A stretch of 64,000 nt of DNA from Otis tarda (Eukaryota > Chordata > Aves > Otidiformes > Otididae), in NCBI GenBank assembly GCA_026413225.1, contig CM048555.1, positions 82,529,785-82,593,784 of the forward strand, read 5' to 3'. Positions 12,647 through 64,000 of this stretch are shown here, one piece after another. The translations under genes were made by a program, and so were the position numbers. Below the pieces are notes generated by a model, which was not told where the DNA came from, did no database searches, and was given only the letters and a program-made list of their open reading frames with translations. The first letter of the stretch is position 1. Each line of letters begins with the position of its first letter.

Positions 12647-15600
12647 ATGGAGGCGGCGGCGCTGGCGCGGGGGGGCGGCGGCCAGGGCCCCCCGCCCCAC
12701 GAGCCCATCAGCTTCGGCATCGACCAGATCCTCGGCGGCCCCGAGCCCGCGGGCGGCGGCGCGGGGCCGGCGCGGGAGCCCGACTACGGGCTGTACGGCG
12801 GCTACGGCCCCGCCTGCCCGCTGGGCTCCTACAACCTCAACATGAGCATGAACGTGAGCGTCAACGTGACCCCCGCGCCCGCCGCGCCGCCCGCCGGGGT
12901 CATCCGCGTCCCGGCGCACCGGCCCGCGCCCCCCGCGCCCCCCGCCGCCCCGCCGCCCGTGCCCGGGCTCCCGGGACTCACCTTCCCCTGGATGGAGACC
13001 ACGCGCCGCATCGCCAAGGACCGGCTCTCAGGTGAGCGCGGCGGGCGGCGCCGCCGACGGCTACCGACGGCTCTACCGGTGGCTACGGACGGCTACCGAC
13101 GGCTACCGGCGGGTAACGGCGGCTACCGAGGGCTCGATGCCGGCGGCTCTGCCGGGCAGCGCCGCGCCTCCGGTCGCGCTCTGGCCGCCGTCGGGGCCCG
13201 CGGAGAGCGGCTCGGGACTGGCACGGCCACCGCTGCCGCGCTCCAGCTCCCGGCAGCTCCGGGCTGGGGTCCCGCCGTGCTCCCGCCTCCGGCTCCGCTC
13301 CGCGTCCGGTCCCTTCCCTGGGCCCGGGGGCGCCGGGCGCCGGCCCCGTCCCGCCCATGGTGGGGAAGCTGCGGGAGCTGTGGGGTGCGGATAGCGGCGG
13401 TGCCGAGTGGGGTGTGGGACCCGCCGAGGGGCTGTGGGGCAAAACCCATCGCATGTGGGGCCGGGCACGGGGAGCTGGTGCCCCTGTCCCATGTGCCTGT
13501 GGGGATGGGGGCAGGCGGTGGGGGTGCCCGTGGCTCCCGGCTGTGGGGCGCAGGGACCCACGTGTGCGTGGATGGGTGTGGGGTGCTGGTGCTGTGCGAG
13601 AGGCCGGGGCTGGTGCAGGCCGGGGCCGGGGAGGACGGGTGGCGACGCAGACGGGAGGCGGTGCGGGGTCCTGGGGCTGCCGGGGGCTGAGCGCCTGTGG
13701 CGGGGGCTGGAGTGCCCAGTGCTGGGGCAAGGGTGCCAGTTGCTGCACCCCAGAGAAGGTGCGGGGTGCTGCGGCTGGGGTGCTGGGTGCGGGGGCTGCG
13801 ACTCAGGCGCCCGCGGGTGCGCCGGGGAGCTCTGGCCTGGCTTGGCTCCGCTCGGCTCTTTCCCAAGATGGCGGTGCTGCCACGTCCCCAACGCGCAGCT
13901 GCATGCGGGGTCGAGGCCGGGGGCTGCGTGGGGCTGGGGGCTGAGCGCTGGCTGTGGGGGTGCTGGGGCCATGTGGGGCGGGAGGCCGGGGGCTGCGGGG
14001 GCCCAGCCCAGGCGCCGGCAGAACCGTGTTCGCCTCCCGGCCCACCCCGCCATCGCAGCGGTGACGAAGCACCATCCCCGCGCAGGGGTGGCGGGTGACG
14101 TCCTCGTCTCCTGCCTGGCGCCAGCGATGGGTGGACGGGGCGGCCCCTCCCCGGCACGGGGTCTCCCAGCCACAGCCATCACTCAGCACCACCGGCCTTG
14201 GGGTGGTCTGCGGGCTGTCGGCATCTGTTCCCGGCGAGGGGCCGCCCTGCGCGGGGAGGGGGCCTCCATCCCCCCGACTGTGCAGCTCCACCTGCGTCAA
14301 CCGCGTCCACCCCCGCCGGCGGGCAGGCTGGCCTCCCGCCCGCGCCGCCCGCCCAGGTGCTGGGCGCCAGGCTGTCCCTGGGGCTGCTGCGGGGTCTGCC
14401 CCGCGCCCCTCAGGTGTGGGGTGCTGGGGCCGCGTGGAGACCCTGTGGGCCCGGCCATGTGCAGCGCTGCCGCACGGCGCCGGTGATGGCGAGGGCCGTG
14501 GTGCTGCGCGGCCATGGCTTGGGCGCGGGCTGCCAGCGGAGCGGAAGGGGAGCGGGAGCTGGGTGCTGCACTCAGGCCGAGCTCTCTCCTTTCTCCTCGC
14601 CCTTCGCTGCCCTGATGCTCCCGGTGGCTCCGGCCGCATCCGCAGCTGGGACGCGGCACACCAGCCTCACCATCCCCAGCTCGTGCTCTGGCCGTGCAGG
14701 GACAGCCCCTTCCCCGGCCCCTGGCCGCTGGCGGTGGCCGGCTGTGACACTGCCGGCACGCGGAGGGAGACCCTGGCCGCCTCCCGACAGTGTCCGGGGT
14801 CTGGTTCCCTCCCCGGGCGCGCTGGGACGCCCCGGCAGCGCCGTGGAGGCTGCTCAGGGGCTGCGGCAGCGCTCGGCCTGCAGCGCAGGGGTGGGCGTGC
14901 GCTGCCGGCAGCCTTGCCGGCCCCGCACCGGCCTGGGGACCGCGCTGGGGGAGCGCTCGGGCGGTGGCCGTGCGGTGGGGACGGGGCCTCCCGCCACCTC
15001 TTGGGCTGCCCCACGTGTCCCTGGGCTGGGGGACTGGCTGGGGGACTGAGGGGTCTCCTCGTCCCGAAGGCCCCCTCAGAGCTCCCCGTCCCCACGGCTG
15101 TGAGCATCCGAGCGTCCGCCCCGCGTTCCCGCGCTGCGACCGCTCCCACGCCGCCATCAGCAGGGGCTCTGCCGGCGCCCGCCCGTGCGGCAGCGGCCAT
15201 GGTTCCCCCGAGCCACCCCTCACCCCCGCTCTGCCCGCAGCCGCGCTGTCGCCCTTCGCGGCGACCCGGCGGATCGGGCACCCCTACCAGAACCGCACGC
15301 CGCCCAAGCGCAAGAAGCCGCGCACCTCCTTCAGCCGGGTGCAGATCTGCGAGCTGGAGAAGCGCTTCCACCGCCAGAAGTACCTGGCCTCGGCCGAGCG
15401 CGCCACCCTGGCCAAGGCCCTCAAGATGACGGACGCCCAGGTCAAGACCTGGTTCCAGAACCGCCGCACCAAGTGGAGGTAACTGGGCCGGCCCCGGGGC
15501 GGCTGTCGCAGCCCCCGCAGCTCCCACCCCGCCTCCCTCCTGCACCCCCGCGCCCCATGGCTGTTGCTCCTGGGAAGGCTGGGCTGGGGCGAGACGGGGT

Positions 15601-16258
15601 CCCTGTCCCCGCTGCGTCCCCCGTGCCCAGCTGGGAGAGGCACGGCGGTGCCGAGGGAGGGACGGGGCTGTGGGGCAGAGGCTGTGGAACATTGCCACGC
15701 CGGCACACATCGGTGCCGAGAGCGGGGCAGAGGCTGTGAGGGTCACTGCCGCGCTGGCACACAGCGGTGCCGAGAGCGGGGCAGAGGCTGTGAGGGTCAC
15801 TGCCGCTCTGGCACACAGCGGTGCCGAGAGCGGGATGAGGCTGCGGGGCAGGGGCTGCGAGGCAGTTCGGCACTGGTGCACGGCGGTACCACCAGCACAC
15901 AGTGGTGGTGAGAGCGGGACAGAGGTTGTGGGATGGGGCTGCAGGACAGAGGCTGCGGGGCAGGGCTGCGGTGCTGGCGGTGGGCGCGGGCGGTGGGCAC
16001 GGGCGGTGGGGTGGTGCTGGACGGGCCGTGTGTGCTGGCAGGAGGCAGACGGCGGAGGAGCGCGAGGCGGAGCGCCAGCAGGCCAACCGCCTGATGCTGC
16101 ACCTGCAGCAGGAGGCCTTCCAGAAGAGCCTGAGCCAGCCGCTGCCGCAGGACCCGCTCTGCATGCACAACTCCTCGCTCTACGCCCTGCAGAACCTGCA
16201 GCCCTGGGCTGAGGACAACAAGGTGACGTCCGTCTCGGGGGTGGCCTCCGTGGTGTGA
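12647..16258 (+). CDS. TLX2: T-cell leukemia homeobox 2 transcription factor, 3 exons, 279 aa
   Basis: TLX2 (HOX11L1) is a nuclear homeodomain factor of enteric neuron and neural crest derivatives. Exons 12647-13031, 15241-15478, 16042-16258 close in phase (279 aa; human 284). An EH1-like Groucho motif ISFGIDQIL lies at residues 21-29. A PBX-contact-like FPWMETTRR is at 113-121. The homeodomain spans residues 152-211 with TWFQNRR; Thr198 is the TLX-diagnostic Thr at homeodomain position 47. The TLX tail [19 protein letters not shown] is intact, ending ASVV. The N-terminal exon carries Ala/Pro-rich stretches longer than usual, in step with local GC. TLX1 and TLX3 are the alternatives, but position between PCGF1 and DQX1 and the tail favour TLX2. 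No AATAAA was seen within 1 kb downstream. Confidence 0.96.
13032..15240 (+). other. TLX2 intron 1
   Basis: Donor GTGAGC at 13032, acceptor CTGCCCGCAG ending 15240. The intron starts with a run of GGCTACGGAC-type short repeats (about 13040-13130) and is otherwise GC-rich unique sequence. No nested gene was recognised. Confidence 0.75.
15675..15930. repeat. 52-54-bp tandem repeat in TLX2 intron 2
   Basis: Units beginning GCAGAGGCTGTG start at 15675, 15727 and 15781, followed by one or two decayed copies. Each unit contains GGCACACAGCGGTGCCGAGA. The array fills nearly half of the 563-base intron. Confidence 0.8.
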
Positions 16259-17340: not shown

Positions 17341-17398
17341 GCGATGAGCACGGCCGAGCGCCGGTCCCGGGGCGGGGGCGGGGGCGGGGGGAGGCGTT

Positions 17399-18363: not shown

Positions 18364-18369
18364 GCCCCG

Positions 18370-19003: not shown

Positions 19004-19006
19004 CTC

Positions 19007-19176: not shown

Positions 19177-21747
19177 TCAGCGCTGCTGGGCTGCATCGAC
19201 GTCCTGCCAGGCGCTCCAGGGGCTCCAGGCGGGGTGGGTGTAGGGGTCCCGGCAGCTGATACGCACCCGCCGCACGCCCTCCTGCAGCTGCGTCGCCTCC
19301 GCGCCCTCCACGTACTCATCAACCTGCAAAGCGGGGCAGCTGCGGCCTTGGGGAGCTCCCCGCACTAGGGCGGGGGGCAGCCGGCACAGGGGCTGCTGCG
19401 GGAAGGTGGGACAGGGCCGGAGCAGTGCTCGGCCCTGGGGGCTCAGGAGTGGGAGATGACACCTTCTCCCTGGCCCAGGCCGTGATGCTGCCTTCTGTGG
19501 GCAGCGCTGGCGGGGGGAGGCAGCGGTGACAGCCAGGGGTCACAATTCACTGCCCCGAGGAGAGAAGTGGCACAGTGGGGAGGGGGCCATTGCTGAGCCC
19601 CCGGCAAGTCCCTGCACCCAGTGGCAGCCCTGGGCGGGGGGCAGAGCCTGGGCTGGGGCAGGGGCGGGGTGGGCACGGGCATCACGCCGTTACCTGGGTG
19701 CCGTTGGGGAGCTCATACTGCAGCCGGTAGAGCAGGGCGAAGTAGGACTTGGGGAGCGGCCAGGAAGCCGGGGGGGCCCAGGCCAGCTGGAGATGCTCCC
19801 CCCGGCGCCGCACGGTCAGCTCCTGCGGCGGGTTGGGCTGCACTGTGGGCAAAGCGGGGCTCAGCGTGGGGCAGCCCTGCGGCCGAGCGCTCTGACAGGG
19901 CCCCAGCGCCCTGAGGACACCCCTGCTGCAGGTCTGAGCTCACCGATGTCGCGGAGGAAGAAGTGGACGGAGAAGTTGAAGTAGGAGGTGTTGGAGAGCC
20001 CCTCCAGCTGCAGCTGCAGCGGGCGCAGCTCCTCGGCGAAGGGGCAGAAGGAGGGGTCGGCCAGGCTGGCGCTGAACTGGCCACAGCAGCCGGCCGCTGG
20101 CACCCACTCGCCCAAGGAGCCGTCGCTGCTGGGGGGAGGCAGGTGTGAGGGCTGGGCAGCCGTGGGGCCGGGGCTGGGTGAGGGGGTCCCTGGGGCACCC
20201 ACCTGTGCGTGAGGCGGGCGCGGAAGACGGCAGAGTCGGGGCTGGCCCAGGAACAGTGGAAGGAGCCGCGGTAGGACTCAGCCTGGCAGGAGACGTTCAT
20301 CCCCTCCTGGCCTGGTGGGGCCGAGGGGCGATGGCTTGGGGGCTGCGCGGGGCTGGGAGCGCTGCCCCCTCCCTGTACGGCCCAGGCAAGGCTCCCCTGG
20401 CCCCGCACAGCCCTGCCCGCTGCACCCCCACAGCCCCATGGGCTGGGCACAGACGCCCGCAAGATGTACCAGCATCTCCTGGTCCCCAGCATTTGCAGGT
20501 CCCCAGCCTGCCCCCAACCCCCTGCATCCCCTCCCCCCATCACCCCCCATCCGCCTCCCGGCTCTCAGCCCGGGGTCCCCTGCTCAGCCCCACGCACGGG
20601 TGCCGCTGACCACCACGTAGGTGGAGTCCAGCAGGACGGCGCCGGCCCAGCAGCTGTAGTTGCCCGCGGCCGGCAGGTCCAAGCCGAAGATGGTGAGAGT
20701 CTGTCCCTCGGCCGCGAGCTGGGCCATGGGCTCGGGCTCCCCGTTCAGCGTCCAGGTCACCTCCTGCTCCGAGGTGTCGCACTTCACCACAACGTCCCCG
20801 TCCATTTCCCCCACCTGAACTGGAGACGAGAGGCAGAGACTGGGGTCAGAGACAGGCTATGGGATGGGCAGCCCGTCCCCCACACCGCGCTGGGGCTGGG
20901 TGCCCTCTCGTCCCAACCGGCCACACCCACCCTTCCCCCTGGTCCCGAGCCTGCTCCTGCACCCCATCTCCATGTCCCCTGCTCCCGCACCCCAGCTCCA
21001 TCTCCCCCTGCTCCCACACCCCATCCCATCTCCCCTGCTCCCGCACCCCATCCCATCTCCCCTGCTCCCGCACCCCAGCTCCATCTCCCCCTGCTCCCGC
21101 ACCCCATCCCATCTCCCCTGCTCCCGCACCCCAGCTCCATCTCCCCTGCTCCCGCACCCCAGCTCCATCTCCCCCTGCTCCCGCACCCCATCCCATCTTC
21201 CCCGCTCCCGCACCCCAGCTCCATCTCCCCCGCTCCCGCACCCCATCCCATCTCCCCCGCTCCCGCACCCCAGCTCCATCTCCCCCCACTCCCGCACCCC
21301 AGCTCCATCTCCCCCGCTCCCACACCCCAGCTCCATCTCCCCTGCTCCCACACCCCAGCTCCATCTCCCCTGCTCCCACACCCCATCTCCATCTCCCCCT
21401 GCTCCCACACCCCATCTCCATCTCCCCCTGCTCCCACACCCCATCCCATCTCCCCCGGCTCACCCCACGTCTTCCCCCACCTCACATCACTCTCGTGCCC
21501 ATCCTCCAGCCCCCTCCCCAGAGGAGCCGCCCCACCCCGGGCTCCCGTCTCCCCGTGTCAGAGGGATGTGGGATGTGGGTGCTCCCCACTCCCTCCAGCT
21601 GCTGCAGGTCCTGCAGCCCCCCTGCGTGGGTGTCCCCCCTCCGAGGTCCCCCGGTACCCGGGTGGGGTGGGACTCACACTTTGGGGGGAAGGAAGTCAGG
21701 GCGTCCGCAGGAGCGAGGAACAGCGCCATCCCCACCAGTACCAGCAT
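19177..21747 (-). CDS. Interleukin-12 subunit beta (p40)-like protein, 6 coding exons, 293 aa
   Basis: p40 is the secreted receptor-like subunit that pairs with p35 (IL-12) or p19 (IL-23). Exons on minus: 21747-21678, 20819-20598, 20311-20203, 20128-19944, 19842-19694, 19323-19177; all phases close (293 aa; human p40 328). Residues 1-17 form a signal peptide. An Ig-like domain follows with Cys37 and Cys80. The first FNIII domain opens with Cys106-Cys117, the same 11-residue spacing as p40, in VSCQAESYRGSFHCSW. SFCPFAEE (Cys162) aligns with the p40 segment carrying the interchain cysteine. FFLRDIVQPNPP marks the hinge and WSPWS (278-282) the cytokine-receptor signature. N-glycosylation sequons include NVS, NTS, NFS and NGT. 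EBI3 lacks the Ig domain, so p40 type is favoured. The C-terminal p40 cysteine pair is incomplete. It is not where IL12B is expected, so I call it a paralog. Confidence 0.85.
20940..21470. repeat. 27-29-bp minisatellite, about 19 copies, in intron of p40-like gene
   Basis: Two alternating unit types, CACCCCATCCCATCTCCC and CACCCCAGCTCCATCTCCC, each followed by CTGCTCCCG or variants, tile about 530 bases between coding exons 1 and 2. All plus and minus frames across it stay open, which explains several overlapping 200-aa spurious frames. Confidence 0.92.
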
Positions 21748-22082: not shown

Positions 22083-22100
22083 GGGGCCGGCGGGCACCGG

Positions 22101-22112: not shown

Positions 22113-22114
22113 GC

Positions 22115-24218: not shown

Positions 24219-29778
<5,560 letters not shown>

Positions 29779-47200: not shown

Positions 47201-50200
47201 CCGTGGCTGCTGGAGCGGTGGCGGTCTGGTGTGGCGGCAGGCAGTGCCGGCTGCCTCAGGGTGGGAGGGCTCCTGCGGGGCCACAGCGGGACGGGCACCG
47301 CCGCACAAACCGCTCTCTGGCCCACGAGCGGCGTTTCGCTGTGTTTGCGAAGCATGTTGGCAGCGCGGCAGTGCACCCGTTCGCACGACGCGAGCCTGTG
47401 GTTTGCTGCCTGCCAGGCTAGCGGCTGCGGGTTCCCTCTGCGCGTGTCTGCATCCAGAGCCGCGGTGCTGGTGGGACCGGCTTTGGCACCGCGGCGCGGC
47501 ATTGCCGTGAGCCTCGGCTGCAGCCAGCCGGTGGGAAGCCCACGCTCCCTCCCCACCGCACCGGTGGCTTTGCTCCGTCTCCGTGCAGCCAGGCCCTGAC
47601 CGCGCTCCCGCTGCTGCTGGCTGTGGCGCTGGGAAGCACCCAGCTCCGTCGCGTACGGCTAACCCCCGTGCCGTGGATGAGGGGCCCCGCGGTGCCCTGC
47701 TGCCGCAGGCGGGGCTCTGCCCCAGCCGCCCCGCGGACGGGATTTCCCAACGCGCTCGCATGATGGGGCCGGCAAAACCTCCCCGGGCAGCCTGCTCCCC
47801 TGCGCGGCCCGCACTGCGCCTGGAAAGGATTTCTGGGGTCCAGCCTTGCTCTTCCTGCTCATTCCCAGAAAGCTGCTGCCTGCTTGGCCCGTGCCATTCG
47901 GGAGGTTTTTGGTGGATTTTTCCTTAGAGAGGGAAAGGTTGCGCTTGCCCTCAGCAAGGCTCATCTTGCCATGGAGCGGCACTCCGCTCGGCTCTGACCA
48001 TCTCGGCGTTGCGTTCGCCGGCGTTACCCGCAGGCCTCCCTGCTCAGCACTAACGCCGCGATAGCAGTGTGGACGGCAGCGCAGGGGGACAGCGGCGGCT
48101 GTGGTGGCAGTGGCTCGGGCAGCGGGGTCTGTGCAGGGACCACCCAGCACGTCAGGGACAGGGACACAAATCGGGTGTCGGGGGTTCCTCTGGAGCGGCA
48201 CCCATGGCTCTCAGACCCCGTCCTGGGCGGCTCTCACACCTCAGCTGTCACTGGGCTTTCCAGTAATTTCCAGTGCAAGGTGTGTATTTGGCCTGGGATC
48301 CCTCGTGCCGCAAGGTGCCAGCCCCAGGGCCTGGGGAAGGGGTGCATGGGGTGGCCCCCGCTTGTCCTGGCCCAGCAGCTTGCCGCCCGGCACAGCACAA
48401 GCACTGAAGGGGGCTGTGAGAAAGAGAGAGACTTGTTACCAGGGCCTGCAGTGACGGGACAAGGGGTGACGGTTTTAACTGAAGGAGGGTTGGTGTAGAT
48501 TGGACGTAAGGGAGAAGTTTTCCGTGGAGGGGCACTGGCACAGGCTGCCCAGAGGAGCTGTGGGTGCCCCACCCCGGCAGTGCCCAAGGCCAGGTTGGAT
48601 GGGGCTCTGAGCGACCTGGGCTGGTGAAGATGTCCCTGCCCAGGGCAGGGTTTTGGACTGAGTGGTCTTTGGGGACCCTTCCTACCCAAACCCTTCAGTG
48701 ATCCCGTAGTGAGCAGCGTAAGGGGCTGGGAGCCTCGACGGCTCCTTGTTGCCGCTGGGGACAAGGTGAGAGTGCTCCCGGTACCTCCAAGTCCCTCCGG
48801 GACCTGGCTCTCAACAGGGCTCCCGTCCTGATCTCTGCGTGACGGACAAACGAGCCTTGCCCCGGGCAGCGTGGGCGAGCCTGTCCGGGCTGCTGCGCCA
48901 AAGCAGAAAACTGAAAACACAACCGACAAGAGTCACCCGAAAAAGAAGTTTTGTTCCTCTTTCATTCCACGTATGCGGCGCCGAAAGCTGAAGCGTGCCA
49001 AGGGAGAGGTGGGCGGTGAGGCCGCCCCGCACGCAGCGCCGCTGGGAAAGCGGCGGGGTCGCGCGGTGCTGTGGGCTGCGGCTCGGCAGGCGGGTGCTTT
49101 CCGGGGAGCGGAGTGAGAGCCCCGTGCCTGCCTGCACCGCGCAGAGGTGCCGGGATGGGTGTCGGTGTCCTGTCCGTGCGCTGTGCTGCGCTCGTGGTGA
49201 GGAGCTGTGCCGGGTTCTCGGTGTCCCCAGGGTGCTCAGACCTCGCCTGTCCCCGCCGCATCCCTGCCGTCGCGCTTTGCTGTCTGCCCGCGTCCCTCCT
49301 GCGGATCACACTGCAGAGCGCTGCGTCTGCCGGCCCTGTCCGTCCCTCCTCAGCGCTCTCGCCTCCCTGCCCGTCCCAGGGTCTCGCTCGCGGCCGGGCA
49401 GCTGCTCCAGGGCTCAGGGGTGCTCCGGCATTACACCGAGGTATCTCCCTCACCATCGTGTGAGAAAATACAGAGCAAATTCCCTGGCTTACAGAACTTC
49501 TGGCAGAGAAATTTAATTACGCGGAACATTTGCAAACAGCCCTGTGATTTAGTTTGCGTTGGAACGAAGACATCCCTGAAGACATTCAGTGTTCTTATTC
49601 ATCTTCCCTTTATCTCGGTGATCTTAACAGAGCAATAACATGGACTCCTCAGATCTTCTAAATACTTTAAACAGTGCTACAATTTTTACACCGTCTGTAA
49701 TTTAAAGAAATTAGATTGTAATTACAGTAAGTTACTGCAGATCGCTGTATTATTTGATTATGTGCTGCCGCTGGAATGGGATGCGCAGCCCCGTTGCCCG
49801 TTCGAGGGTCCCGGGTGGCCGCAAGGACGGTGAAGGGGGGCCCGGCCGGCGCGGGGTGCAAAGTTCGTCGCCCCAGCACCGTTGGCAGCTCTGTGGCTGC
49901 TGCGTGGGGAAAGGGCTGATCCCCGTCCCGCTTCGGGCAGGAGGCTGGTGGGCTGTGAAGGGGCTGGGTCCTGGCGTCGGCCGTGGGAGAAATGCGCTTT
50001 CCTGCGGGAACGCGCCACCAGCCCTCGCTCTGTCGGGAGGTGCTGTGCCACCTCTCCAGCCGCATTCCCCTTTGGCACCCCACACGCCGTGCCAGGGCAG
50101 GCGGGGACCGATGGAGCCCCTCAAAGCCCCCCGTGCCATTCGGGATGTCAGGGACCGCTCCCACCCTGCCATGGTAACCCTGGGACGCCCACGCCCGTGT

Positions 50201-53200
50201 AGCTCCACCGCCTCGGGGCTGGGGGAGCTGGGGCTTGGCGACGGCGCGGTGACCAGTGACGTGGTCCCTGCTTTCTGCTTCCTCCCTGCCAGTTCCTCTG
50301 GCTGCTTCTGCTTTTTGGCTGCCGCTGAGGGCGGGAAAGTTCTCCTGAACTTGCTTGTCGTCACCCAGGGTCTCGCCCCGCGCGGGGTCCCCTCTCCTGC
50401 CGACGCGGGGGAGCTGGCGTCGCTCACTCTTGCCAGCATCCCTCCGCAGCTGCCTGCCTTGCAGCTCACCGGCCCTTCATTCCTGCAGCCAGCTCCCACT
50501 CCGCCAGCTCCCGCTCCGCCAGCACCCACGGGCTCCGCCATGGCCCCCTCGTCCCTGCTCCCGTCCCGGGGCAGCCCAGCGCCCTAGCGAGGACTGGCCC
50601 CTTAGGACCCCTGACCTCGAGCCAGTCACTTGTGCAGCTGCGGACCCTGGCTGCTGAGCCTCCCCAGCGGCCCCCGTCCCGCAGGGACTGTGCTGGGGTC
50701 CCTGGGGTCCCCAAAGGCTGTGTGTCATTGCTGTGGGCCCTCGTTTCCTTTCGCTGCTTTTAACACAGGCAGGATTTTTCAAATTTCTCAGCCTCTGGTG
50801 GGGTTGTGGGTGGGAGGGGGGCAGCGGGGATGGAGCTGCAGGGATGGGGACTGCGGGGGCTCCCACCCTTCAGTAACTTCTGACACGCGGGGTGAGAGGG
50901 AGGGACCGTTCCTAAATCAGCCGGAGCTTTGTTTGGGCTTGGAAGCCGCTCAAGGGCTGGGAGCCAGCGTTGGCCTGAGCGCATCGGAGCTGCCTGGGGC
51001 GGGTAACGGGCGTGCTCCCGCCTGCTCCCGCTGCCAAACCCGCTGTCTTCCCGCGGGCCCCAGGCGCATTTACCAATGGGAAAGATGAGTTTGGAAGAAC
51101 GATCCAACTGTAATTATGTTAAACAAGGCAGCAGAGTTTTTACAAAACCTGGACTCAATAGAAATGGCTGGGAAGCAGAAAATGACAGACCTTGTTCCAC
51201 CGCTGTGCACACACTTAGAAACCAAACCACAATTAAGAACCACACACGTTTTGCTCGCTGTGGCGGCGGGCGGCATGCAGGGCTCGGGGCTGGAGGCGCG
51301 TGCGTCTCGTCGGCCGTGGGAGATTGGCGCCTTACCCCTCGTTTCCCCATCCCTACCTGTAATTGCTGCCCGCGGGCTCGCGCTCCGATCGCAGCCGTGA
51401 ATCAGCTCAGACGTGACCTCTTCTCGCAGGGAGTCACTGCAGCGACTTTACTGCTCTGATCGCGCCTTTGGTGAGCTGCCTGGGAACTTTCTCACGGGTC
51501 TGCACGTCTTGTGGGTAAAGCTCCCCACGAGAGCTGGGCTGTGCTGTGGCTGGTCGCACAGGTCGAGCTTGGGCTGGAGGGTGCAGGAGGCTTCCTGCTC
51601 TGGTGGGAACACATTAGCGTCCTTTGAGGGGGCTTCGGCATGCAAAATCATGTAAAAGAGCCTATTTGAACAAAAAAAGTATGTATGTGAGCACGAATAG
51701 GTGGTGTATGTAAATCGGTAAGGGGGCCATGGTGCACTGGTGACTCTGGCTGTTTCAGGCTCTACGAGGGGAAGGAGACGGCTGAGTTCCAGTGCTCGCT
51801 GCAGCGCTTCTTCCTCTCCCTCAACCAGCTGATGAAGTCCTCGCTGGAGGGTCCCACGCTGCTCTCCCAGGTACGGCGGGGGGCTCGGCTCTGGCGCGCG
51901 GCGGGGCGGGCACTGCCCCAGCGGGGGTGACACCGTCCGCCCTGCGTGCAGAGGGTCTCAGGAGGGCTCCTGGGGCTCGTCCCCGTCCCGGAGCTGACCT
52001 GGCCCCGCTCCCTGCACCCCGAGACCGGGCTGGCACGGGGGGCCAGAGAGAGCAGAAACGGTGCCCCTTGCACCATGGGTCCCTGCGGGCACGGCCGCGT
52101 CCTGTGCGAGGGTGCCGGGGTGGGAGCGGAGAACGCGGTGCAGCCACGTTCGCTCTGCAGCGTCAGTTAGCTGTTGAGCCCCTGCGATGGCCTGTGTCTG
52201 CTCCTCGGAGCAGGCTGTGGATGCTGGAAGTTTGCGCAGGTTTGCAAGCAGCTGTGCTGACCTGTGGAAGGAAAACCTGCCCAAGACTATTTAAATATAA
52301 AGACATTCCTGACTTGAGATGCCCTGACCTTGGGACGCACCACCGTGGGCTCGTGAGCCAGCAAGGTCCCGTCCTCGTCCCCTCGGAGCCTCGGACCAGG
52401 TGCCCCGTGCTGCCTGGCTCCCGGTGACCCTGCCCGGCCTTGCTGTTGTCCCCCATCCAGAGGGTCCACGGCTTCCCTGCTGTCCCGCCCACCGTCACCC
52501 CAGCCATGGTTCTTGTGCTGCGTCCTGCACTGGTTCCTGCTGGAGCCTGGCCACTGGTCCTGCTGTGTCCGGCCCTGATGGTGTCTCCTGGACATTGTCA
52601 GCGGGTTCTCCAAGGAGGGAGCGCTTTTTGTGTTCTCTCGGTGAGGCTGTAGCTGCTGTACGGCGCTGGGAGACGCTCTGCCTCGCTAGCTGCCACGGCC
52701 AGCTCTCCCGAGCAGCTGGAGGTTGACACCCCAGGATCTGTGAGTGGCTGACAGAAGCTTCGCAGCTTCTTCCTCTTCTCCCTCCTCTTTTCCTTAAAGC
52801 TGCAATTATCTGATCAGCTGAAGGCAGCACTGATGACAGCTCGTTAGCTGCAGCGCTCCTGCACAGGCTCTCTGGGTGCGGGCCCAGCCAGGGAGCAGGA
52901 GCAGCTCCTCAGCCAGCACCTCCAGCATGCCCAGCAAACGCCATCGCCTGGCGGGTGCTCTGAGGGGAGGGCGGCGGAAGGGACACCCTGCCTCGCGCAT
53001 CTCCAGCCGGGAGACGGGGATTCCGCTGCCACCGCTCCCTGCCACAGCCAGTGGGCCTCTGTGCGTCCCTCTGCTTCCCTCCTGGAGCCCTGGCCTTCTC
53101 TGCGCCAGCTGAGTTTTGGGGTGGGGCGGGGGGTACAGGCGTAAGCGAACGCTGAGGGTGGTGCCAGCTGCCAAGGTGCTGAGCAAGGCGGAGCGGAGCA

Positions 53201-56200
53201 GAGCGTTGCGCTGCTGCCAGCACAGTCTGCCTCAGGGCACCCAAACTGCACCCCACGCTTGGGGACAGCCCGCACGGGCTCGTAGCGACGGCCGGTCGCC
53301 GCTTGTGGTGGGTGTGCGTTCCTTGCTCACGCCTTGAGAAGGACAACCTGCTCCCCTCCGTCTTCCTTCGGTCCGGGTCCAGGCTCACCTGCCGCTCAGC
53401 GCGGCGGAGTGGAGGAGATGGGAGTACTGGGGTTTGACAGCCCGCGTCGGGGACCCCGCTGTCCTGGGGGGTCCTCGTGAGCGTCCGCAGCTGGAGCTCT
53501 GACTCTCCGCGCTCGCTCTGACTCTCCCCCTGTGGCTGCTGGCGCGCGGGTGGGTGGGCAGGACGCCCTGCTGCCAGCGTCACACAAAGGTGGCGGTCAC
53601 TGCCGCGCGCCAGGAGCAGCTCCTGCCCCAGGCCCGTGGCTGCCGGGCTCCGCGCCCATCCCCGCTCTGCGCTGGGGTCCCTGACAGTCGTCCCCTGCCC
53701 GCTCCCACCCGTCCGTCCTCCAGCCCCACGGCTCCCGTGCCTGAGCATCGCCAGGAGGGCGCGGAGCGGGGAGCTGGTTTAACAAACACTGCTGTTCTGC
53801 GGCTGGGGAGACGCCCGACCCAGCTCGTACGTCCTGGCCAGGCTGGCACTGCTGCGAGAAAAACCAGGCAGGAGGGGCCCATCCTCGGCAGTGACAGACG
53901 TTTTCGGTTCTGCAAGGCCAGGCAGTTACCGTAAAGCCAGAACCAGTTTCTGGAAGAAATCCTTTCTGAGGTGTTTGATGACGGTATTGAAGAAGTCTTG
54001 TAACACTGGAAAAATTCCTGAGGAATGGGAAAACTCTCTCTCAGCTCACGTTACAGAGGGCGAACCAGATGACCTTGCTAACGGTAGCCCAGAGAGGCTG
54101 GCCATTGATCCCGGCGCAGTCGTGGAGAGGATGCCATCAATTCAGAGTTAAGAGATGGCAGCATAATTACTGTTAATCAGTCCAGCTTTACTAAGCATGG
54201 AGTTTAATAAAAAAAAAATCAAATTTAGCTGTTACTTTTTGTGAAGTCGCTAATGTGACTGACTAAGATAACTGACATCACAGGCGAGACTAACGGCTGT
54301 TTGACTTCATGCAGGGTTCTGATTTAAAATGAGCATTGTGAGTTTATTAAAATAACTACTTTTAACTTCCTTAACATATATCTTCTCAGTTCTAAAAAAA
54401 GGAATTACAAATGGAGAACCGTGGTGCTGGGATGGGCATTTCCTCTGGCTCCCAGGGGAACCAGCTCCTGGCTCAGGAGTCTGGTCAGACGTGGCCGGTG
54501 CAGGGGCGCGGGCGGCAGTGGCAGCGCGGGGTGGCGGGGAAGCCTCTGCTCCGCGCCTGGGCTCTGCGGGCAGCGAGGGGCTGGGGCGCGGGCCGGGGCT
54601 GCGGGGCAGAGCTGGGAGCTCCCAGCAGTGAGCGGCCAGAGGCGAGGCCGAGTGCGGTGTCCTGATGTGCAGAGCGCTGGTGCAGTGTTTGCTTTTCCAA
54701 AAAAACCCAGCCAGGCGTCCCCCACCCTCACGGCACCAGGGGATGACGAGGGCGGTGGGCTGTGGGCCAGGCTGAGTGCAGCGCTGCTGAACGAGGCGGG
54801 GGACACGAGGATAGTGCTGGCACAGCACCCACAACCGGGGGGTGGCAGGAGGGGCCGGGGGTCATCTCCCTCCCTGCACAGCGTCCGCCCGTCTGTGTGT
54901 CCTGCCCGCGGCGCGGGGCACAGCGTGACGGGTGTGGAGTCAGCGCTCCCGTCTCTCTGCAGGGAGCAGCCCTGAAGTACCTGCCTTCCATCCTGGAGGA
55001 CGTGTTCGGGATCTTCGACTCCTCCGTGCTGGGGTAGGGTCTGCTTTGCCCCGTCCCGCCCCGTGCTCTGCAGAGTGCTCAGTGCCTGCCGCAGCCCCTC
55101 TGCCCCGCTCCCGTCCCGCAGCGACTCCTGTTCGGAGCTGCCGGCGGGATGCAGGCTGACACTGTTGGGCCGAGGGCAATGGCAGCTGGAGGGGTCTGGG
55201 TTTCCTGATGCCTGGGAGTCACCTCCTTATCCCCTTCCTAGTGCAAAACCAGAGGAGGGCTTCGCTCAGTTTTAGTGGTGGCCTGTGCTTCAGGCAGAGG
55301 CTGAACCCCGCTCAGTCCTAGACGGGTCCGTTTGGGGAGCTCAGCAGGGTTTTTATGCCAAGCATCTCCGCGTGGCCATCTGCGGCGGGCACGGGCTGCC
55401 TCGCGCTGTGGGGCCGTCCTGCCCTGCACCTCCCGGCACAGCTCTGCCCCCCTCGAGTGGCTCCCCCTGCCTGGCAGCCCCGTCCCGGCTGAAACACGGG
55501 GCAATGGGTACCCGAACCCCGCTGCTGCCTCTGCCTGGCTGAAACATGGGGCAATGGGTACCCGAACCCCGCTGCTGCCTCTGGCTCCTGCAGAGGGAAA
55601 GGGGCTGCGAGTGCCTGGGGCTGCGGAACGAGCGGGGGTCTCGCAAGCCTTGTGTTTAACCCTCATCAAATCCTCTCTCCTGCGCGGCAGGGCCTTGCTG
55701 CGGGACTTCATTGGGAACCTGCCGCCCCAGCGCCTGCTGAAGCAGAAGCTGCAGTCCCTGACCGACATCGTGAACAGCAAGGTCTTCCAGTCCTACGGTG
55801 AGAGGGGCAGCGGGGGTCCCGGTGGCACTGCCCGTGCTGAGCTCCCCGGGAGGGCCGGGGCGTCGGAGGGGGACGAGTCCCTGCACAGGGACCGCTCCTC
55901 TGCCCCAGACGGCTCCTGCGCCCGGGGTGGCTCTGCAGAGGGAGGCAGTTCCTCCAGCTTCCCCCGGACCCTGGCCGGGGTGCCGCTGGAGCCGCTGGAG
56001 CCGCTGGAGCCAGCCTCTCCGGTCTGAGGCGCTGCGGGCTGCGGGGGGGAAATGCGGTTTGGCTAAAGCCACGTGCGGCAGCGTGAGGACGGGTTAGCGT
56101 GGTGTTCCAGGAGGGGCTGTCGGGGGCTTGCTGGCGGGCTGGAGGGACGCAGGACTCCCCGGGTCTGCCCTGGCTCCAGCGCTGTCGGACATTCTTAGCC

Positions 56201-58823
56201 GTGATCTGGGTGATGGAAAAAAGAGCAGACTTGGTGAATTCTGCCCTGCAAGGCAGAAGCAGCTGGAGGCAGGCGGGAGGACAGACTCAGGGTTTAAAAT
56301 GATCTCAACAAGTTGGAGAAAAGGGTTTGGAAGATACAGACGATATTCAGGTTACCAACCATCGTGTGAAAGCAGTCCCCGAGCAAGCAGAGGGCAGAGC
56401 CCAGGGCGCAGCAGGGCTATGGGGCGGGGGCAGGGGCTCCGCGGTGCAGCCCGCACGGGGGGAGCGTCCCTCGGGCGTCGTGCTGGTCCCGTCTGTTCCC
56501 GTGCGGCCCTCTCCTGCGCCGAGGCGGTGGCGTGCCCGCCAGCCCCGTGCCTCGCTCTCCGCCCCACAGAGTGCCGGGAGCTGCTGCTGCAGACGGCGGT
56601 GCCCATCCTGCGGGAGCTGATCGAGAAGGGCGAGGAGGAGCACGCCTGCATTGAGCTGCTCAGCAACGTCCTGGAGGTGCTCTACAAGGCCCAGAAGGTA
56701 AACCCCGTCTGTTCTGCTGGCTCCATTTCCCTCCCCAGTAATCACCCTGGAAATCACCGGACTGAACCCGTGTGAGTGGGGCCAAGCGCTAATTACTGAC
56801 CACGATGTGGTCGGGACTGATGGCGATCCATCCGAACTCCAAGGGAGCGTTGGTGCCCCCCATCCCAGTGGGAACCTGCCCAAGATGAGGGTAAAACCCC
56901 TTTGATCTCCACCTCAGCTGGTCTTTGGTGGCCTCCCATCGGTCCCTGTAAGCGGGGAAGAGGCCTCGCCAGGGACAGCACCGACCCGAAGGCAAGGGGT
57001 GCATCGCCGGCCGTGCCTCCCGCTGCCCCTGCTCTGCCCTGCCCAGGAGGAAGGCGAGGAGGCAGCCGGCCAGCGATTTCCTGCTGGCCCCGGGCAGCAT
57101 TGCGCTCCGAAATTAGCAGCAATGGCCCAAAATGGGCCAGAGCCCTGGGGTGCAGGAGGTTCAGCCCCGCACCCTGCAGCAGAGCTCTGACCGTGCCCGG
57201 GGCAGTGGGGTGCCCCACACACCCCCTCCCCCTGCGCTGCCTGTGGGAGCCTGCCCGCTGCTGGGGTACCAAAGCGATGACAGCCGCACGCCGGCCCGGC
57301 TGCGCTCGGGGTCAGCGGGCTGGGCGTCCAGCCAGGCATGGTCCTGCTGTGGGTGCCGGACCGCCCAAACTCGACTCATCCCATGATGGCCTCCGGTGGG
57401 ACAAGGCCGTCCTTGCTGGCATCAGCACGATTTCCCGGGATGCTGTTTGTTGCAGAGAGCGGAGCAGCTGCAAGCACAGCACGGTGCGGGCAAGGGACGG
57501 CACAAGGACCGTGGGGACGCGGAGCTGGTGAGTGCCTCTCTGGTGGGCTTCGGCACGGTGGGCGACGGGAAGGAGCCAGGTGCCCCGTGCGTTTGGGAAG
57601 GGCTTATCTGCATCTCGCTCCGGCAGCAGACCCCGAACAGTCACCTGGTGTCAGTGCGCAGCGCTGGGCTGCTGCGGTGAGGGGGGCAGGGTGGGGAGGC
57701 CGGGGGTCTGTGTGGCTCTGGGCTTGCAGTGAGCCCTCAGTGCCATGTGTCCCACCCTGGGGTTGGGGGCGTCGGTGCCCAGACCCCCGCAGCCTCGGTG
57801 CTTTGCTGTGCACTGGCCAGCGGTCTCGGACCATTCTGGCTCCTCACTGGGGTGAGGAGTGATCGTGATCGCACAGCTCTCGGGGGGCATCGGGACTGCA
57901 GGGTGGCGCGGTGCCGCTCCCAGCACGGCAGGCGAGGTGCGCGCGAGGTGTGCTGTGCTCCAGAGCCGGCTCACGCTGGGTCACAGCCCCCGCAGCGTCC
58001 CCGTGGCCCCGCTGGGCTCGCTGCTCCCCAGGCGCCGGAAGGATAAAGCGTGGGCTTGCAACTGGAAGCAGCGTCCATGCTTACACCGGAGCGCATCGCC
58101 GTGTTCCGGCTCCGATGCCGCCAGCCCCACACAGCGACTCAATGAGCCGTACGTGCGGTGCTGTAGCGGACAAGTCTCTTACTTCAGTATTTCACACGAA
58201 TCACAAGTCCGCTGGTGGTTTCCCATCTCCCAGCGTGCTGCGAGCCTGTCCCTGCCGGCGGTGTGCTCCTGCCCGGCCACGGCACGGACCAGAGCTGTCT
58301 GGTCCCACGGCTGAGGATCCCAGGCGCGGGGCTTGTCCGACGGCCGTGGGCTCCCACAGCTGGAGCAGAGCTGCTTCCTCCTTGCTCCACGGGGCACTGC
58401 GGGTGCTGAGGGAACTTGTGCCCTCGGTCCTCTGCCGAGAATAACTGCCAATACTTCGCAGCCTCCTCGCCTGCTTTTTGTGATGAGCCGCAGTAATTGC
58501 AGCGGTGCCGCGGGGCCGATCGCTCGTGGCCCGGGACGTGGCATGCCCCGGCCCAGCCTGCCAGCACCGGGTGCCCGTGGGGGCTGGGGACCGCGTGCCG
58601 GCTCTGTGCCGCGGGGGCGATTCCCGTTGGCTGTGGCGATGGTGCCGTCACCCGCGCCCTCGCTCTTGGCACCAGGGCAGGCGGCAGCGGGTGCTCAGGC
58701 GGGGCCGTAACAGCTCTCGCCTTGCAGGTGGAGGTGAAGAAGCACATCCAGCTGATCCTGGAGCGGCTGCTGCACACCGTCAATCGGAGGGTGATCGTCC
58801 TGGACCGGGAGAACGCCCTGCGG
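32212..58823 (+). CDS. DOCK-A family Rac GEF, DOCK2-like, N-terminal half (27 exons, 930 codons, continues past window)
   Basis: DOCK-A proteins (DOCK1, 2, 5) bind ELMO and activate Rac. Exons: 32212-32254, 33995-34078, 34250-34290, 34521-34576, 34681-34777, 34853-35001, 35181-35316, 35404-35558, 35901-35982, 37009-37144, 38277-38352, 38471-38550, 38648-38773, 38880-39004, 39742-39840, 40290-40362, 41163-41266, 43281-43470, 45538-45635, 46152-46241, 46529-46629, 46817-46951, 51759-51870, 54963-55033, 55691-55797, 56570-56697, 58728-58823. All phases close (2790 nt). An SH3 domain spans residues 15-68 ([15 protein letters not shown]); DHR-1 starts about residue 421 ([20 protein letters not shown]). 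DOCK2-leaning features are the MAPW start, [12 protein letters not shown] and [12 protein letters not shown], and a Ser-rich linker before [20 protein letters not shown]-2, the catalytic part, is not in the window. Orthologous DOCK2 is expected elsewhere, so this is a fourth DOCK-A paralog by inference. Confidence 0.9.
32255..33994 (+). other. DOCK-like intron 1
   Basis: 1.7 kb between the 14-codon first coding exon and the SH3 exons; donor GTGAGT, acceptor CCCCGCAG. First introns often hold regulatory sites, but nothing distinctive was seen. Confidence 0.6.
37145..38276 (+). other. DOCK-like intron 10 with A/T-rich island
   Basis: Contains a lower-GC block at about 37450-37600 carrying ATTATTGATTTTAC, CCGATTAGCG, GGAATTACCG and GGCTAATTGC, reminiscent of homeodomain/PBX-type sites. 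Remaining sequence is unremarkable. The inference of a regulatory element rests on composition and motif density. Confidence 0.4.
38648..43470 (+). other. DOCK-like DHR-1 (C2-like) coding segment
   Basis: Exons 13-18 encode residues about 379-617. This covers the DHR-1 domain, which in DOCK1/2 binds PtdIns(3,4,5)P3 at the membrane. Recognisable segments are [56 protein letters not shown] and [18 protein letters not shown]. No frame break is visible. The intron after exon 13 has a GC donor (38774-38775, GCAAGC). Confidence 0.85.
41267..43280 (+). other. DOCK-like intron 17
   Basis: 2 kb, less GC-rich than average. A 20-base unit (GTGCGGTCGGTGTCCGGCT) is duplicated near 42925-42970. No exon or gene was recognised. 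Confidence 0.6.
43471..45537 (+). other. DOCK-like intron 18
   Basis: 2.1 kb with donor GTGAGT and acceptor CCGCCCAG. A very long minus frame crosses this intron and neighbouring exons (44984-47761) but is low-complexity shadow coding. Nothing else recognised. Confidence 0.6.
46952..51758 (+). other. DOCK-like intron 22
   Basis: 4.8 kb. Holds a CR1 3' end (48417-48708) and two strikingly A/T-rich islands, 49440-49760 and 51059-51260, the second with repeated AACCACA (RUNX-like) words. No additional DOCK exon is needed: exon 22 (CA|) joins exon 23 (|G CTC TAC GAG) in frame. Confidence 0.65.
48417..48708 (+). mobile_element. CR1 LINE 3'-end fragment
   Basis: The stretch has the hallmark CR1 3' sequence order: GGGCACTGGCACAGGCTGCC, GGCCAGGTTGGATGGGGCTC, TGTCCCTGCCCAGGGCAGGG, and GACCCTTCCTACCCAAACCC. 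It is 5'-truncated and diverged, so an old insertion. CR1 is the dominant avian retrotransposon, supporting a bird origin. Confidence 0.9.
51871..54962 (+). other. DOCK-like intron 23
   Basis: 3.1 kb containing a LINE reverse-transcriptase remnant (53930-54215) followed by an A/T-rich tail to about 54415. The rest is GC-rich with no recognised gene. Confidence 0.6.
53930..54215 (+). mobile_element. CR1-type LINE reverse transcriptase remnant
   Basis: Plus-strand translation gives [16 protein letters not shown], matching the start of the CR1-type reverse transcriptase (pattern W..GKIPEDW), and further on [10 protein letters not shown], matching the NQHGFTKGKS region. Stops separate the pieces, so the element is dead. 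It is old and heavily diverged. Confidence 0.7.
55487..55585. repeat. 50-bp direct repeat, 2 copies, in DOCK-like intron 24
   Basis: GGCTGAAACACGGGGCAATG... at 55487 is repeated at 55537 with one or two differences, both followed by GGTACCCGAACCCCGCTGCT. A near-identical tandem duplication. Confidence 0.9.
56185..56345 (+). mobile_element. Probable CR1 ORF2 remnant
   Basis: GATCTGGGTGATGGA near the start and AATGATCTCAACAAGTTGGA near the end correspond to CR1 reverse-transcriptase coding segments in the right order, with an internal deletion. Strongly decayed, so confidence is limited. Confidence 0.45.
57457..57528 (+). other. Candidate cassette exon (24 codons) in DOCK-like intron 26
   Basis: A segment flanked by TGTTTGTTGCAG and by CTG|GTGAGT. 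It is exactly 72 bases, open in the frame required, and phase 0 at both ends, as are exons 26 and 27. It would insert [20 protein letters not shown] plus DAEL between LYKAQK and [12 protein letters not shown]1/2/5 have no matching segment, so it would be alternative or lineage-specific, or a chance pseudo-exon. Confidence 0.35.
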
Positions 58824-61570: not shown

Positions 61571-61593
61571 ACAAAAATAGTGTCTCTGTAGAA

Positions 61594-61640
61594 TTTATTG
61601 AATTCTCATTAAATACAGCCATTGTTCCCCTCGCTTTATT
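61594..61640 (-). terminator. Two AATAAA poly(A) signals of the antisense gene
   Basis: TTTATT on plus at 61594-61599 and 61635-61640 gives AATAAA twice on minus, 155-200 bases after the TGA at 61794. The whole 61570-61700 stretch is A/T-rich, typical of a 3' UTR end. It marks a real transcript terminus. Confidence 0.75.
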
Positions 61641-61793
61641 TACACAGGGGCTTCAATAGATGAAACTGAACGGTTAAAAATATAAAAGCTGGTGCTACCC
61701 AAACCCTACCATCAGAGGGAGGGAGAGGAGGAAGGAGGTGTGGGCAGGGGGTCAGTGCTGGGACGGTGCCCCCGCGCTCCTGGTGCCACCGGC

Positions 61794-61992
61794 TCACAGG
61801 AACCAGAAGCATTTCCGCCTGGATTTCTTTGCGTCCAGCTTCGCAGGCAGCTTCGTCACTGGCGATGGCTCTTGCCTGGGCAGGACAGCCGCTGCCGCTG
61901 CGGCCGCGGGGGAGCTCGGCGTTGCGTCGCCCTCGATATGGCTCAGCACCCGCTGGAAGCGGCCCTCCTGCTGCCGGAAATCGTGCTCCACG
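61794..61992 (-). CDS. Terminal coding exon of an INSYN2/FAM196-like gene, partial
   Basis: The exon opens at an acceptor GCTCACCCGCAG in phase 2 and codes 65 residues: VEHDFRQQEGRFQRVLSHIE (a likely short coiled coil), a poly-Ala tract, then a basic tail ending KKSRRKCFWFL and TGA. Two AATAAA signals follow, so this is a genuine last exon. INSYN2A and INSYN2B (inhibitory postsynaptic gephyrin-associated proteins) lie antisense inside mid-gene introns of DOCK1 and DOCK2. This exon lies antisense just past DOCK exon 27, in the same arrangement. The coiled-coil and basic-Cys tail are consistent with my recollection of the INSYN2 C-terminus, but the assignment leans heavily on position. Cys is fifth from the end, so not a standard CaaX box; palmitoylation is possible. 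Upstream exons were not found. Confidence 0.6.
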
Positions 61993-64000
61993 CTGCGGGT
62001 GAGCAGGGCGAGGGGACGGCGTTAGGGGCCATTGCCCACCACGGCCCCCTGCCCGCCGTAGCTCTGCGCCCCGGCACCCGCCTGCGCCCCTGCGCCCTGC
62101 CACGCAACACACCCCCCCGGGCTCAGTTTCCCCCACGGCTGAACCTGCTGTGCCGGAGACACCCAGAGACCTTCCCTTTCTTGGGACAGACCGATCGACG
62201 GCCCCTGACCGGGTGCAGGGGGTATTTTGGGATGGGTCACCCTCAGCCGCCCCCACACCTTCTTTCTTATCCAGCCTCAGACGCTGGCGCTGCCTCTGCG
62301 TTTCTCTGGGGCTTTACTCTGCTTTCTCCTGTTTCACCAGAGCTACTTTGCCTTAAATGCCTGCCCTGAACAGGGACAAACAGGCCGGGTCCCTCCGGGG
62401 GGGCTGATCTGCTGCAACGGGTCTCCCTGTGCCCGGGACGCACTGCTGGTGGCTCCGCAGGTGCTGGCCATCCTCGGCAGTGAGGGCAGAGGAAGGCTCT
62501 GGACACGCCAGCGCCCTGCAGTTGCCGGCCACAGCAGCAGGCTTCCCTTGCTGCCGCACTGCGACGTGCGCCCCGAGCAGGGCACGGCTTCTGGGGGTGC
62601 TGCGCCATCCCCGCGGGGCTGCGGGATCCCCCTGGCTCAGACTAACACAGCCTGAGACTTTGCCCAGGACACACCGAGGGTGAGGAGCCGGCCAGCCGCC
62701 TGAGCTGGGGACAGTGCTGGTGCAGGGGGCGAGCCCAGGGTCCCTGGGACGCCCCCAGAGAGGGGCTGCCTTTCCCAGTTTGTCCTGCCACCAGCACCGC
62801 ACCCGGCCCGCACGGGCTGAGAGCAGCTGCAGCTGCAGGAGGTGACACGAGTGTGCCAGGGCTGTGCTGCTGCCTGTCACACCGCTAGCGATGCACAGAA
62901 TTAGGGTGCCCCGTGTCTGGGTAGGTAAGAGGGGCTGTGCCCCCCACCACAGCCCGCAGGTTTCCGGCAAGCGCCGCAGCTCTCTGGTGTCCCCGCAGCA
63001 CCCTGCAGCGCAGGCTGGCTGCTGGTGGCCGCGTGCCGTGCAGATTCCTCACATGGAAAGCGCGCTGGTCTCCCCACACCAGCCACATCCCATCGGATCA
63101 GTGAGGTGCTGCGGTATGCGCCCGGGCCCATGCACGTGGTGTGGCTGCCCCGCACACGGGAGCGCCCCACGAGCCCCCGCGCAGCACGCTGACACCCCCG
63201 TCACCTCGCGCTGCAGGGACGCTGGCTGTCCCCAGCTGTTCCTAGGATAACGGGCCAGCCACGGCAGACAGCCCCTTGCAGGGGGGCAGCGTGGGAAGGA
63301 CCCCGCGTTCCCAGCGCAGAGGCAGAGGAAGGGCTGGGACTGCTACGGGGGTGCACAGCTGGCGCGTTTGTGCACGATCCTGGGATGGGACGCACACAGG
63401 TCTGCTCCCCTCTGCGGGCGATTGCCAAGGGTCAGTGCCAGCAGCGCTGCCCTGGCTCCTGGCACCCTGCGCTTGGGCTGGGCGCTGCCCCACTCCCCCT
63501 GCCCCGTGTCCCATGTCCCGTGTCCCACCGGAGCCTCTTCTCATCACGCGGATGGCAGTGGAGCCCAGAGGGACCCCGCAGCGGGAGCCTGGCGATTACA
63601 GGGAGCCACCTCGCTCAGATGTGACATCGCTCCCCGCTGCAGTGCCGCGTGGAGACAGGCTCGTCAGACCCAATTAGCGCTGAAGTCCCCCACGAGCTGC
63701 GGCAGGGTAGTTCATGGTGTAAATAAGCAGATAACAGGAGAGATGGATGCAGCGATGGATGCAGCACCGCTGCGGTGGCATGGGCAGGCAGGGCGGCCAG
63801 CACTTTGTATGAGGATGCTGCTGCGCAGCGGGGGCCGGCTCTGGGGCCCCCCCAGCCTGGAGGAGAGGGCGTCCGTCCCACGCACAGGAGCTCACAAAAG
63901 CACAGCGGGGCAGCGGCTAAACCGTCCCGTGTGCACACCGTGGAGCGCTGCTCGGTGCCAGCTCTGTGCTTACTCAGCAGAGTAAGCCTAATTAATAGCA
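61993..64000. other. Right-hand end of the window, no exon recognised
   Basis: Should be intron of both the DOCK-like gene (plus) and the antisense gene (minus). An A/T-richer block at about 63580-63740 contains CCCAATTAGCGC, GGTGTAAATAAGCAGATAAC and similar words that could be regulatory. The last 20 bases (CCTAATTAATAGCA) are also A/T-rich. No coding exon was identified on either strand. Confidence 0.55.

Follow-up and report, generated by a model that had tools for sequence, protein, structure and literature searches.

What gene block does the TLX2 locus of birds preserve? We address this question in a 64,000-nucleotide stretch of the Otis tarda genome (GenBank assembly GCA_026413225.1, contig CM048555.1, positions 82,529,785 to 82,593,784 of the forward strand; hereafter the window). 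A codon-usage scan combined with a splice-aware scan of this 64-kb stretch gave the gene order PCGF1 (minus strand), TLX2 (plus), a gene resembling that for the cytokine subunit p40 (p40L, minus), DQX1 (minus), a DOCK-A gene (DOCK2L, plus) and a terminal coding exon of the INSYN2/FAM196 type (INSYN2L, minus). We take human 5q to carry IL12B together with TLX3 and DOCK2, a gene of immune cells, with INSYN2B antisense inside DOCK2, and human 10q to carry TLX1 and DOCK1, with INSYN2A antisense inside the latter. An earlier note on this DNA, to which PCGF1 is now added, had named the other five features, all of which we confirm, and had read them as a TLX2-bearing ohnolog of the same block. We put at nearly nine in ten the probability that the locus is indeed the TLX2-bearing copy among the four TLX blocks that arose in two early vertebrate genome duplications, retained in birds.

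The DOCK gene at the TLX2 locus is an ancient sister of DOCK2

DOCK2L occupies positions 32212 to 58823 on the plus strand and runs past the end of the window, which holds its first 28 coding exons (954 residues). These join in frame with zero stops; the donor is GT in 27 cases and GC in one, and all 27 acceptors are AG. A Pfam scan of an 888-residue model, made before two further exons were joined, gave SH3_2, DOCK_N, DOCK-C2 and TPR_DOCK above cut-off, and the domain order visible in the window is SH3, DOCK_N, DHR1/C2 and the start of the TPR region. The catalytic DHR2 region would fall past the end of the window; full-length relatives bear PF06920, PF20422 and PF20421, which we take to be the lobes of DHR2. 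Over 954 residues the model shares 95% identity with its cormorant ortholog, against 58-59% with the DOCK2 proteins of alpaca, alligator and ptarmigan. The row with the highest local identity, P0033 from the kori bustard, is a partial sequence named 'DOCK2 protein'; it differs at 13 of 782 aligned positions when one insertion of 39 residues is set aside.

A homolog search with DOCK2L returned 2265 proteins, the best 120 of which were examined. The species named among them are birds, turtles, crocodilians, a caecilian, salamanders, a lungfish, sharks, a ray, a chimaera and a sturgeon. No mammal, squamate, frog or teleost appears by name in the best 120, and a more distant teleost DOCK2L could lie below them. 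A set of canonical DOCK2 proteins was obtained by searching with the DOCK2 pieces of PDB 6tgb (best 120 of 1944, mammals to sharks), and 41 of the 240 proteins in the two lists entered a tree. The main tree comprises 43 rows, namely 20 DOCK2L proteins including that of the window, 22 DOCK2 proteins and, as the root, the DOCK5 of PDB 7dpa, which we take to be human.

DOCK2L and DOCK2 form separate clades in this tree (support 100/99 and 100/100, respectively), and in both clades the cartilaginous fishes are outermost with the bony vertebrates within. All six of the groupings tested persisted, with support of 91-100, when the analysis was rerun with a mixture model and with the long Huso branch removed. 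Forcing the DOCK2L of the window into avian DOCK2 was 1054 log units worse (approximately unbiased (AU) test, p = 2.4e-37), which rules out a recent avian duplicate of DOCK2, the outcome that the earlier note had named as contrary to its reading. Uniting amniote DOCK2L with amniote DOCK2 was 528 log units worse (AU p = 3.2e-31), ruling out an amniote-only duplication as well. Given two equally deep clades and these rejections, the split between DOCK2L and DOCK2 is older than the parting of cartilaginous and bony vertebrates.

DOCK1 was brought in through a tree of the DHR1 domain (206 columns, 43 rows), in which it is represented by the DHR1 domain of one PDB sequence; C_Megalops is absent, its start motif not having been located. 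The tree sets DOCK1 and DOCK5 against DOCK2 and DOCK2L (100/97), and the alternative pairings of DOCK1 with DOCK2L and of DOCK1 with DOCK2 gave AU p values of 0.026 and 0.010. DOCK2L is the sister of DOCK2. The expectation of the earlier note, that the DOCK gene would branch before the split of DOCK1, DOCK2 and DOCK5, did not hold; a sister relation to DOCK2 is what would be expected from the TLX2 and TLX3 blocks being sisters themselves (PMC2446394).

Some details of the DOCK2L model and of its public counterparts are recorded here. The 39-residue insertion of the kori bustard protein reads through intron 13 of DOCK2L, the GC-AG intron (38774-38879), and is a gene-model error in the public protein. 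In public data, a protein from a nighthawk (P0087) that shares 82% identity with the DOCK2L of the window bears the name 'DOCK1', which illustrates that automatic names mix the DOCK paralogs. The 72-base exon at 57456-57527 (RAEQLQ...) has no counterpart in the DOCK5 of the PDB and is present in the cormorant, ostrich, turtle and alligator orthologs. Two further candidate exons (51095-51193 and 56739-56771) were discarded, since the exons on either side of them connect directly in frame and agree with the orthologs, and an antisense coding signal at 43274-43483 was rejected as the shadow of exon 18. Two long introns (46960-51750 and 52000-54900) drop locally to a G+C content of about 0.62, and AT-rich stretches there mimic coding signal.

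DOCK genes and nested antisense genes across the TLX paralogons

We take the DOCK1 and DOCK5 loci to be paralogons 1 and 4, on human 10q and 8p. Wotton et al. (2008) described four LBX/TLX paralogons, in which 1 and 4 are sisters and 2 and 3 are sisters, and assigned DOCK2 to the TLX3 locus (PMC2446394). Another study locates DOCK1 together with FAM196A and FOXI2 and assigns DOCK5 to the GnRH1 locus (PMC6135963). With DOCK2L at TLX2, each of the four paralogons therefore has one DOCK-A gene in the order predicted, and the DOCK topology matches the published order of 1/4 against 2/3.

The intron of DOCK2L that follows exon 28 contains an antisense terminal coding exon (61794-61992, minus strand) of 65 residues and a stop codon, with a clean acceptor. 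This exon matches the Pfam FAM196 profile (E = 2.1e-11, 44.5 bits, cut-off 27) over profile positions 429-489 of 489. INSYN2A and INSYN2B are, we assume, nested in DOCK1 and DOCK2 respectively.

Linkage in other genomes

A contig size is given for nine bird species in the DOCK2L list as well as in the p40L list, and in eight of these (Phalacrocorax carbo, Struthio, Phaenicophaeus, Columba, Dromaius, Coturnix, Ara and Pterocles) the two genes lie on contigs of equal size. From the equal sizes we infer that the contigs are the same, and co-location of DOCK2L and p40L in other birds is thereby strongly indicated. The linkage appears tight, as the contig that the two genes would share measures just 0.78 Mb in Dromaius and 0.56 Mb in Coturnix. 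DOCK2 and DOCK2L lie on contigs of unequal size in five of the five species with a contig size for both; in Heterodontus, Ambystoma, Pleurodeles and Protopterus these contigs are very large, while those of Probosciger are short scaffolds that carry little weight. A chicken row related to p40L (P0298) lies on a contig of 90.6 Mb, which we take to be about the size of chicken chromosome 4. The chicken genes neighbouring this locus have been placed on a chromosome 4 contig (PMC2446394).

The p40-like gene is at least sauropsid-wide in age

The p40L gene (19177-21747, minus strand) has six exons (21678-21747, 20598-20819, 20203-20311, 19944-20125, 19694-19842 and 19177-19323) and encodes 292 residues, with a signal-like N-terminus, Ig and FNIII regions and the motif WSPWSAW close to the end. 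An initial splice model gave stops and was superseded by a model with a GTGAGT donor. In intron 1, a 28-bp unit is repeated about 18 times as a minisatellite (20950-21461). PDB and Pfam searches, which were made on a 252-residue draft model, ranked IL-12 subunit beta first (E = 3.3e-23), with a match spanning both the Ig and the FNIII regions, followed by CNTFR (3.4e-12) and IL-27 beta (3.2e-10). The Pfam domain IL12p40_C was above cut-off, and Ig_3 (27.8 bits) was under its cut-off of 30.

A homolog search with p40L listed 84 related proteins. Those with names belong to birds, turtles and four squamates, and the others are rows without names. Neither a canonical IL12B nor a named mammal is among those listed; the search needs shared 5-residue words, and with even mammalian IL12B unlisted, the absence of p40L relatives elsewhere says little. 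A tree of 14 of the 84 relatives and two IL12B segments from the PDB, which we take to be human and mouse, gave separate groups for birds (98/98), turtles (98/99) and squamates (93/89), none of which takes in an IL12B segment, and carried a long-branch warning for Hemicordylus. The presence of all three groups means that p40L is no avian novelty, and it is at least sauropsid-wide in age.

We take human p40 to pair Cys148 with Cys171 in its middle domain. None of 15 p40L rows has a cysteine at the Cys171 column, and one human intradomain disulfide is therefore absent from p40L. At the position of human Cys177, C161 of p40L is invariant in all 22 rows of an alignment that includes 21 of the 84 relatives. 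A strict pattern for the Cys177-type motif matched 58 of the 84 rows; the 26 that it missed include at least three turtle rows that keep the cysteine, and many short fragments. Cys177 bonds p40 to p35 (PMC6479496), and the kept residue fits p40L as a beta chain that would still pair covalently.

These features bear on whether p40L is an ohnolog of IL12B, or whether a sauropsid-age duplicate, or some other relative among the class I receptors, landed between TLX2 and DQX1. A later arrival of this kind would agree with the confinement of the named relatives to birds, turtles and squamates, with the additional matches to CNTFR and with the long branch to IL12B. We consider it unlikely, albeit the best of the alternatives to a block origin, given that IL12B is the best match by eleven orders of magnitude in E value over CNTFR, that the IL12p40_C domain is present, that the Cys177 position is kept in every aligned row, and that a search dependent on shared words makes absence from other groups weak evidence. 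The p40 paralogs of trout share only 24% identity and have overlapping yet distinct activities (PMC4929537).

Origin of the block

We propose that an ancestral block would have held a TLX gene, a DOCK-A gene hosting INSYN2 in antisense orientation, and a gene for a p40 cytokine subunit. The second genome duplication would then have produced a TLX3 side, with DOCK2, IL12B and INSYN2B, and a TLX2 side, with DOCK2L, p40L and INSYN2L. Birds would have retained the TLX2-side genes within 50 kb, p40L and INSYN2L probably sharing the origin of the block, and mammals appear to have lost all three. Human 2p13 presumably has no INSYN2 gene. Its lack of DOCK and p40 genes, as claimed in the earlier note, fits the gene list of Wotton et al., where AUP1 comes after DQX1 (PMC2446394), and no named mammals are among the listed relatives of DOCK2L and p40L. 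The reading of the locus as a TLX2-block ohnolog thus stands in so far as an ancient DOCK paralog lies at TLX2, with an antisense INSYN2 gene inside it and a p40 gene adjoining; it does not stand as to a DOCK2L older than the DOCK1/2/5 split, and the age found for p40L is sauropsid-wide only. Linkage unique to this assembly, the other contrary outcome that had been named, did not occur, as that of DOCK2L and p40L recurs in other birds.

Several observations weigh against the proposed origin. Linkage to TLX2 is seen directly in this window alone. Cuculus, the single mismatch among the nine bird species, has the two genes on contigs of 0.2 and 80 Mb, apparently from two assemblies, and in Columba and Dromaius the DOCK2L row that agrees is accompanied by one on a short contig (0.10 and 0.16 Mb, respectively). 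The AU rejections from DHR1 are modest, with DOCK1 coming from one sequence and from this domain only (206 columns), and the DOCK2L clade itself reaches only 94/93 on this short stretch. INSYN2L is known from 65 residues and was assigned by its profile alone. The branch that joins p40L to IL12B amounts to about 2.6 changes per column, and p40L may have originated later, the comparison with IL12B covering two PDB segments. Finally, the best 120 of 2265 include no DOCK2L row named as that of a squamate or a frog, and retention of DOCK2L may be patchy.

As listed, the two genes differ in taxonomic distribution. Four squamates have p40L and none is named with DOCK2L among the best 120; salamanders and a caecilian have DOCK2L, with no frog named there. 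As far as the best-120 and p40L lists go, losses of DOCK2L and p40L look independent.

The age of the DOCK2L/DOCK2 split would also allow that DOCK2 was duplicated, singly or with its segment, before the jawed vertebrates, and that the copy moved to TLX2 alone, its present neighbours having come separately; the tree dates the split and not the mechanism, and p40L and INSYN2L were assigned by profile or similarity. Such a solitary move strikes us as improbable, as four families of the TLX3 side (TLX, DOCK, p40 and INSYN2, the last two partly by our own assumption) recur together here. Furthermore, the DOCK topology is the published order of the paralogons (PMC2446394), and the contig sizes of DOCK2 and DOCK2L differ in all five species with a size for both, four of them with very large contigs. 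A recent avian duplication or an assembly artefact, which has no support beyond the known assembly risk at G+C contents of up to 0.80, can be set aside almost entirely in view of the AU p of 2.4e-37, relatives that range from birds to sharks and the equal contig sizes in other birds.

Flanking genes and base composition

TLX2 lies at 12647-16258 on the plus strand, with its ATG at 12647, an approximate 3' end of exon 1, exon 2 at 15241-15478 and exon 3, which carries the stop, at 16042-16258. Pfam detects the homeodomain; the first PDB match is a homeodomain protein listed without a name (3a01_A), and the second is the TLX2 homeodomain (3a03). The gene was called TLX2, as opposed to TLX1 or TLX3, on the basis of synteny and of a C-terminal motif that we take to be of TLX2 type. 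DQX1 (24222-29718, minus strand) is a DEAQ-box helicase gene, partly modelled, in which the DEAQ box is kept (an 11-letter motif). Its closest PDB relatives are DHX15/Prp43, with DHX15 first, and its name follows from the DEAQ box and synteny. PCGF1 (633-4207, minus strand) is a flanking marker, partly modelled with coding exons from the codon-usage scan, and has PCGF1 as its top PDB match (E = 4.6e-89, for a query with one guessed junction residue). PCGF1, TLX2 and DQX1 adjoin in human 2p13, with AUP1 next after DQX1 (PMC2446394), and this shared neighbourhood identifies the window as the TLX2 locus, here holding additional genes. G+C content is very high, at 0.62 to 0.80 per 2 kb of the window.

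Predicted function and significance

DOCK-A proteins bind ELMO through their SH3 domain and activate Rac (PMC8063744). DOCK2L would be an ELMO-coupled Rac exchange factor like the others, since the parts visible in the window are kept and its full-length relatives carry Pfam domains of the catalytic region. Proline regions of the DOCK1 type bind CRK (PMC10152721), and by analogy DOCK2L may answer to CRK-like adaptors besides ELMO. The product of p40L is predicted to be a secreted beta chain of the IL-12 family, disulfide-paired with a partner of p35 or p19 type. We infer these roles of DOCK2L and p40L from their sequences and those of their relatives.

DOCK2L is the fourth DOCK-A gene, and is already in public databases under the automatic name 'DOCK2-like'. 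The human DOCK proteins are counted as 11 (PMC8063744), and non-mammals thus hold one beyond the human set. DOCK2L supplies the piece that a known paralogon had lacked, giving four TLX blocks with one DOCK-A gene each, and shows that the genes which mammals carry at a TLX locus say little about the block as it once was. A further p40 in birds, turtles and squamates would matter for the transfer of IL-12 and IL-23 biology from mouse and human to poultry and reptiles. Among the matches listed, the open-access literature contains no account of a DOCK or p40 gene linked to TLX2, of a fourth DOCK-A ohnolog or of a sauropsid p40 paralog. We tentatively extend the argument further, with slightly less than even confidence: the TLX2 paralogon may be a complete and immune-flavoured fourth copy of the TLX3 block, the extra IL-12-family beta chain of sauropsids may form at least one undescribed heterodimeric cytokine, and the twelfth vertebrate DOCK protein may be an ELMO-Rac factor whose loss altered the division of work in mammalian leukocytes.

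Comparison with known systems

The nearest published counterpart of the window as a whole is the LBX2/TLX2 locus of Wotton et al., with which it shares the PCGF1-TLX2-DQX1 core; DOCK2 is put at the TLX3 locus only in the excerpt of that paper, which contains neither 'IL12' nor 'interleukin' (PMC2446394). INSYN2L shares with INSYN2A and INSYN2B (FAM196A and FAM196B) the C-terminal 60-odd residues, up to the end of the profile, and an antisense position in a DOCK-A gene. It differs in its host, which is DOCK2L, and only its last exon is inside the window. With IL12B, p40L shares the Ig and FNIII architecture, the IL12p40_C domain, the Cys177 position and the WSxWS-like end, whereas it lacks a cysteine at the Cys171 column in all 15 rows and sits at the TLX2 locus instead of the IL12B locus.

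DOCK2L and DOCK2 have in common the order of SH3, DOCK_N, DHR1 and TPR regions, with 59% identity over 960 aligned columns to a mammalian DOCK2 (P0121), and DOCK2, too, presumably hosts an antisense gene of the FAM196 type, INSYN2B. The two have nonetheless been separate clades since before the cartilaginous and bony fishes split, and lie on different contigs in five of five species. DOCK1 and DOCK5 belong to the same DOCK-A family and likewise have a proline-rich region at the C-terminus (PMC8063744 for DOCK-A proteins generally, PMC10152721 for DOCK1), but fall on the opposite side of the DHR1 tree (100/97). Eight DOCK2L rows were inspected over their last 60 residues: seven carry PPPPPPK and the chimaera PPRPPPK, and neither was seen in the same span of four DOCK2 rows. 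DOCK-A and DOCK-B proteins generally have a proline-rich C-terminal region (PMC8063744), and the PPPPPPK motif of DOCK2L therefore marks a difference from DOCK2 at the very end of the protein, and not in kind.

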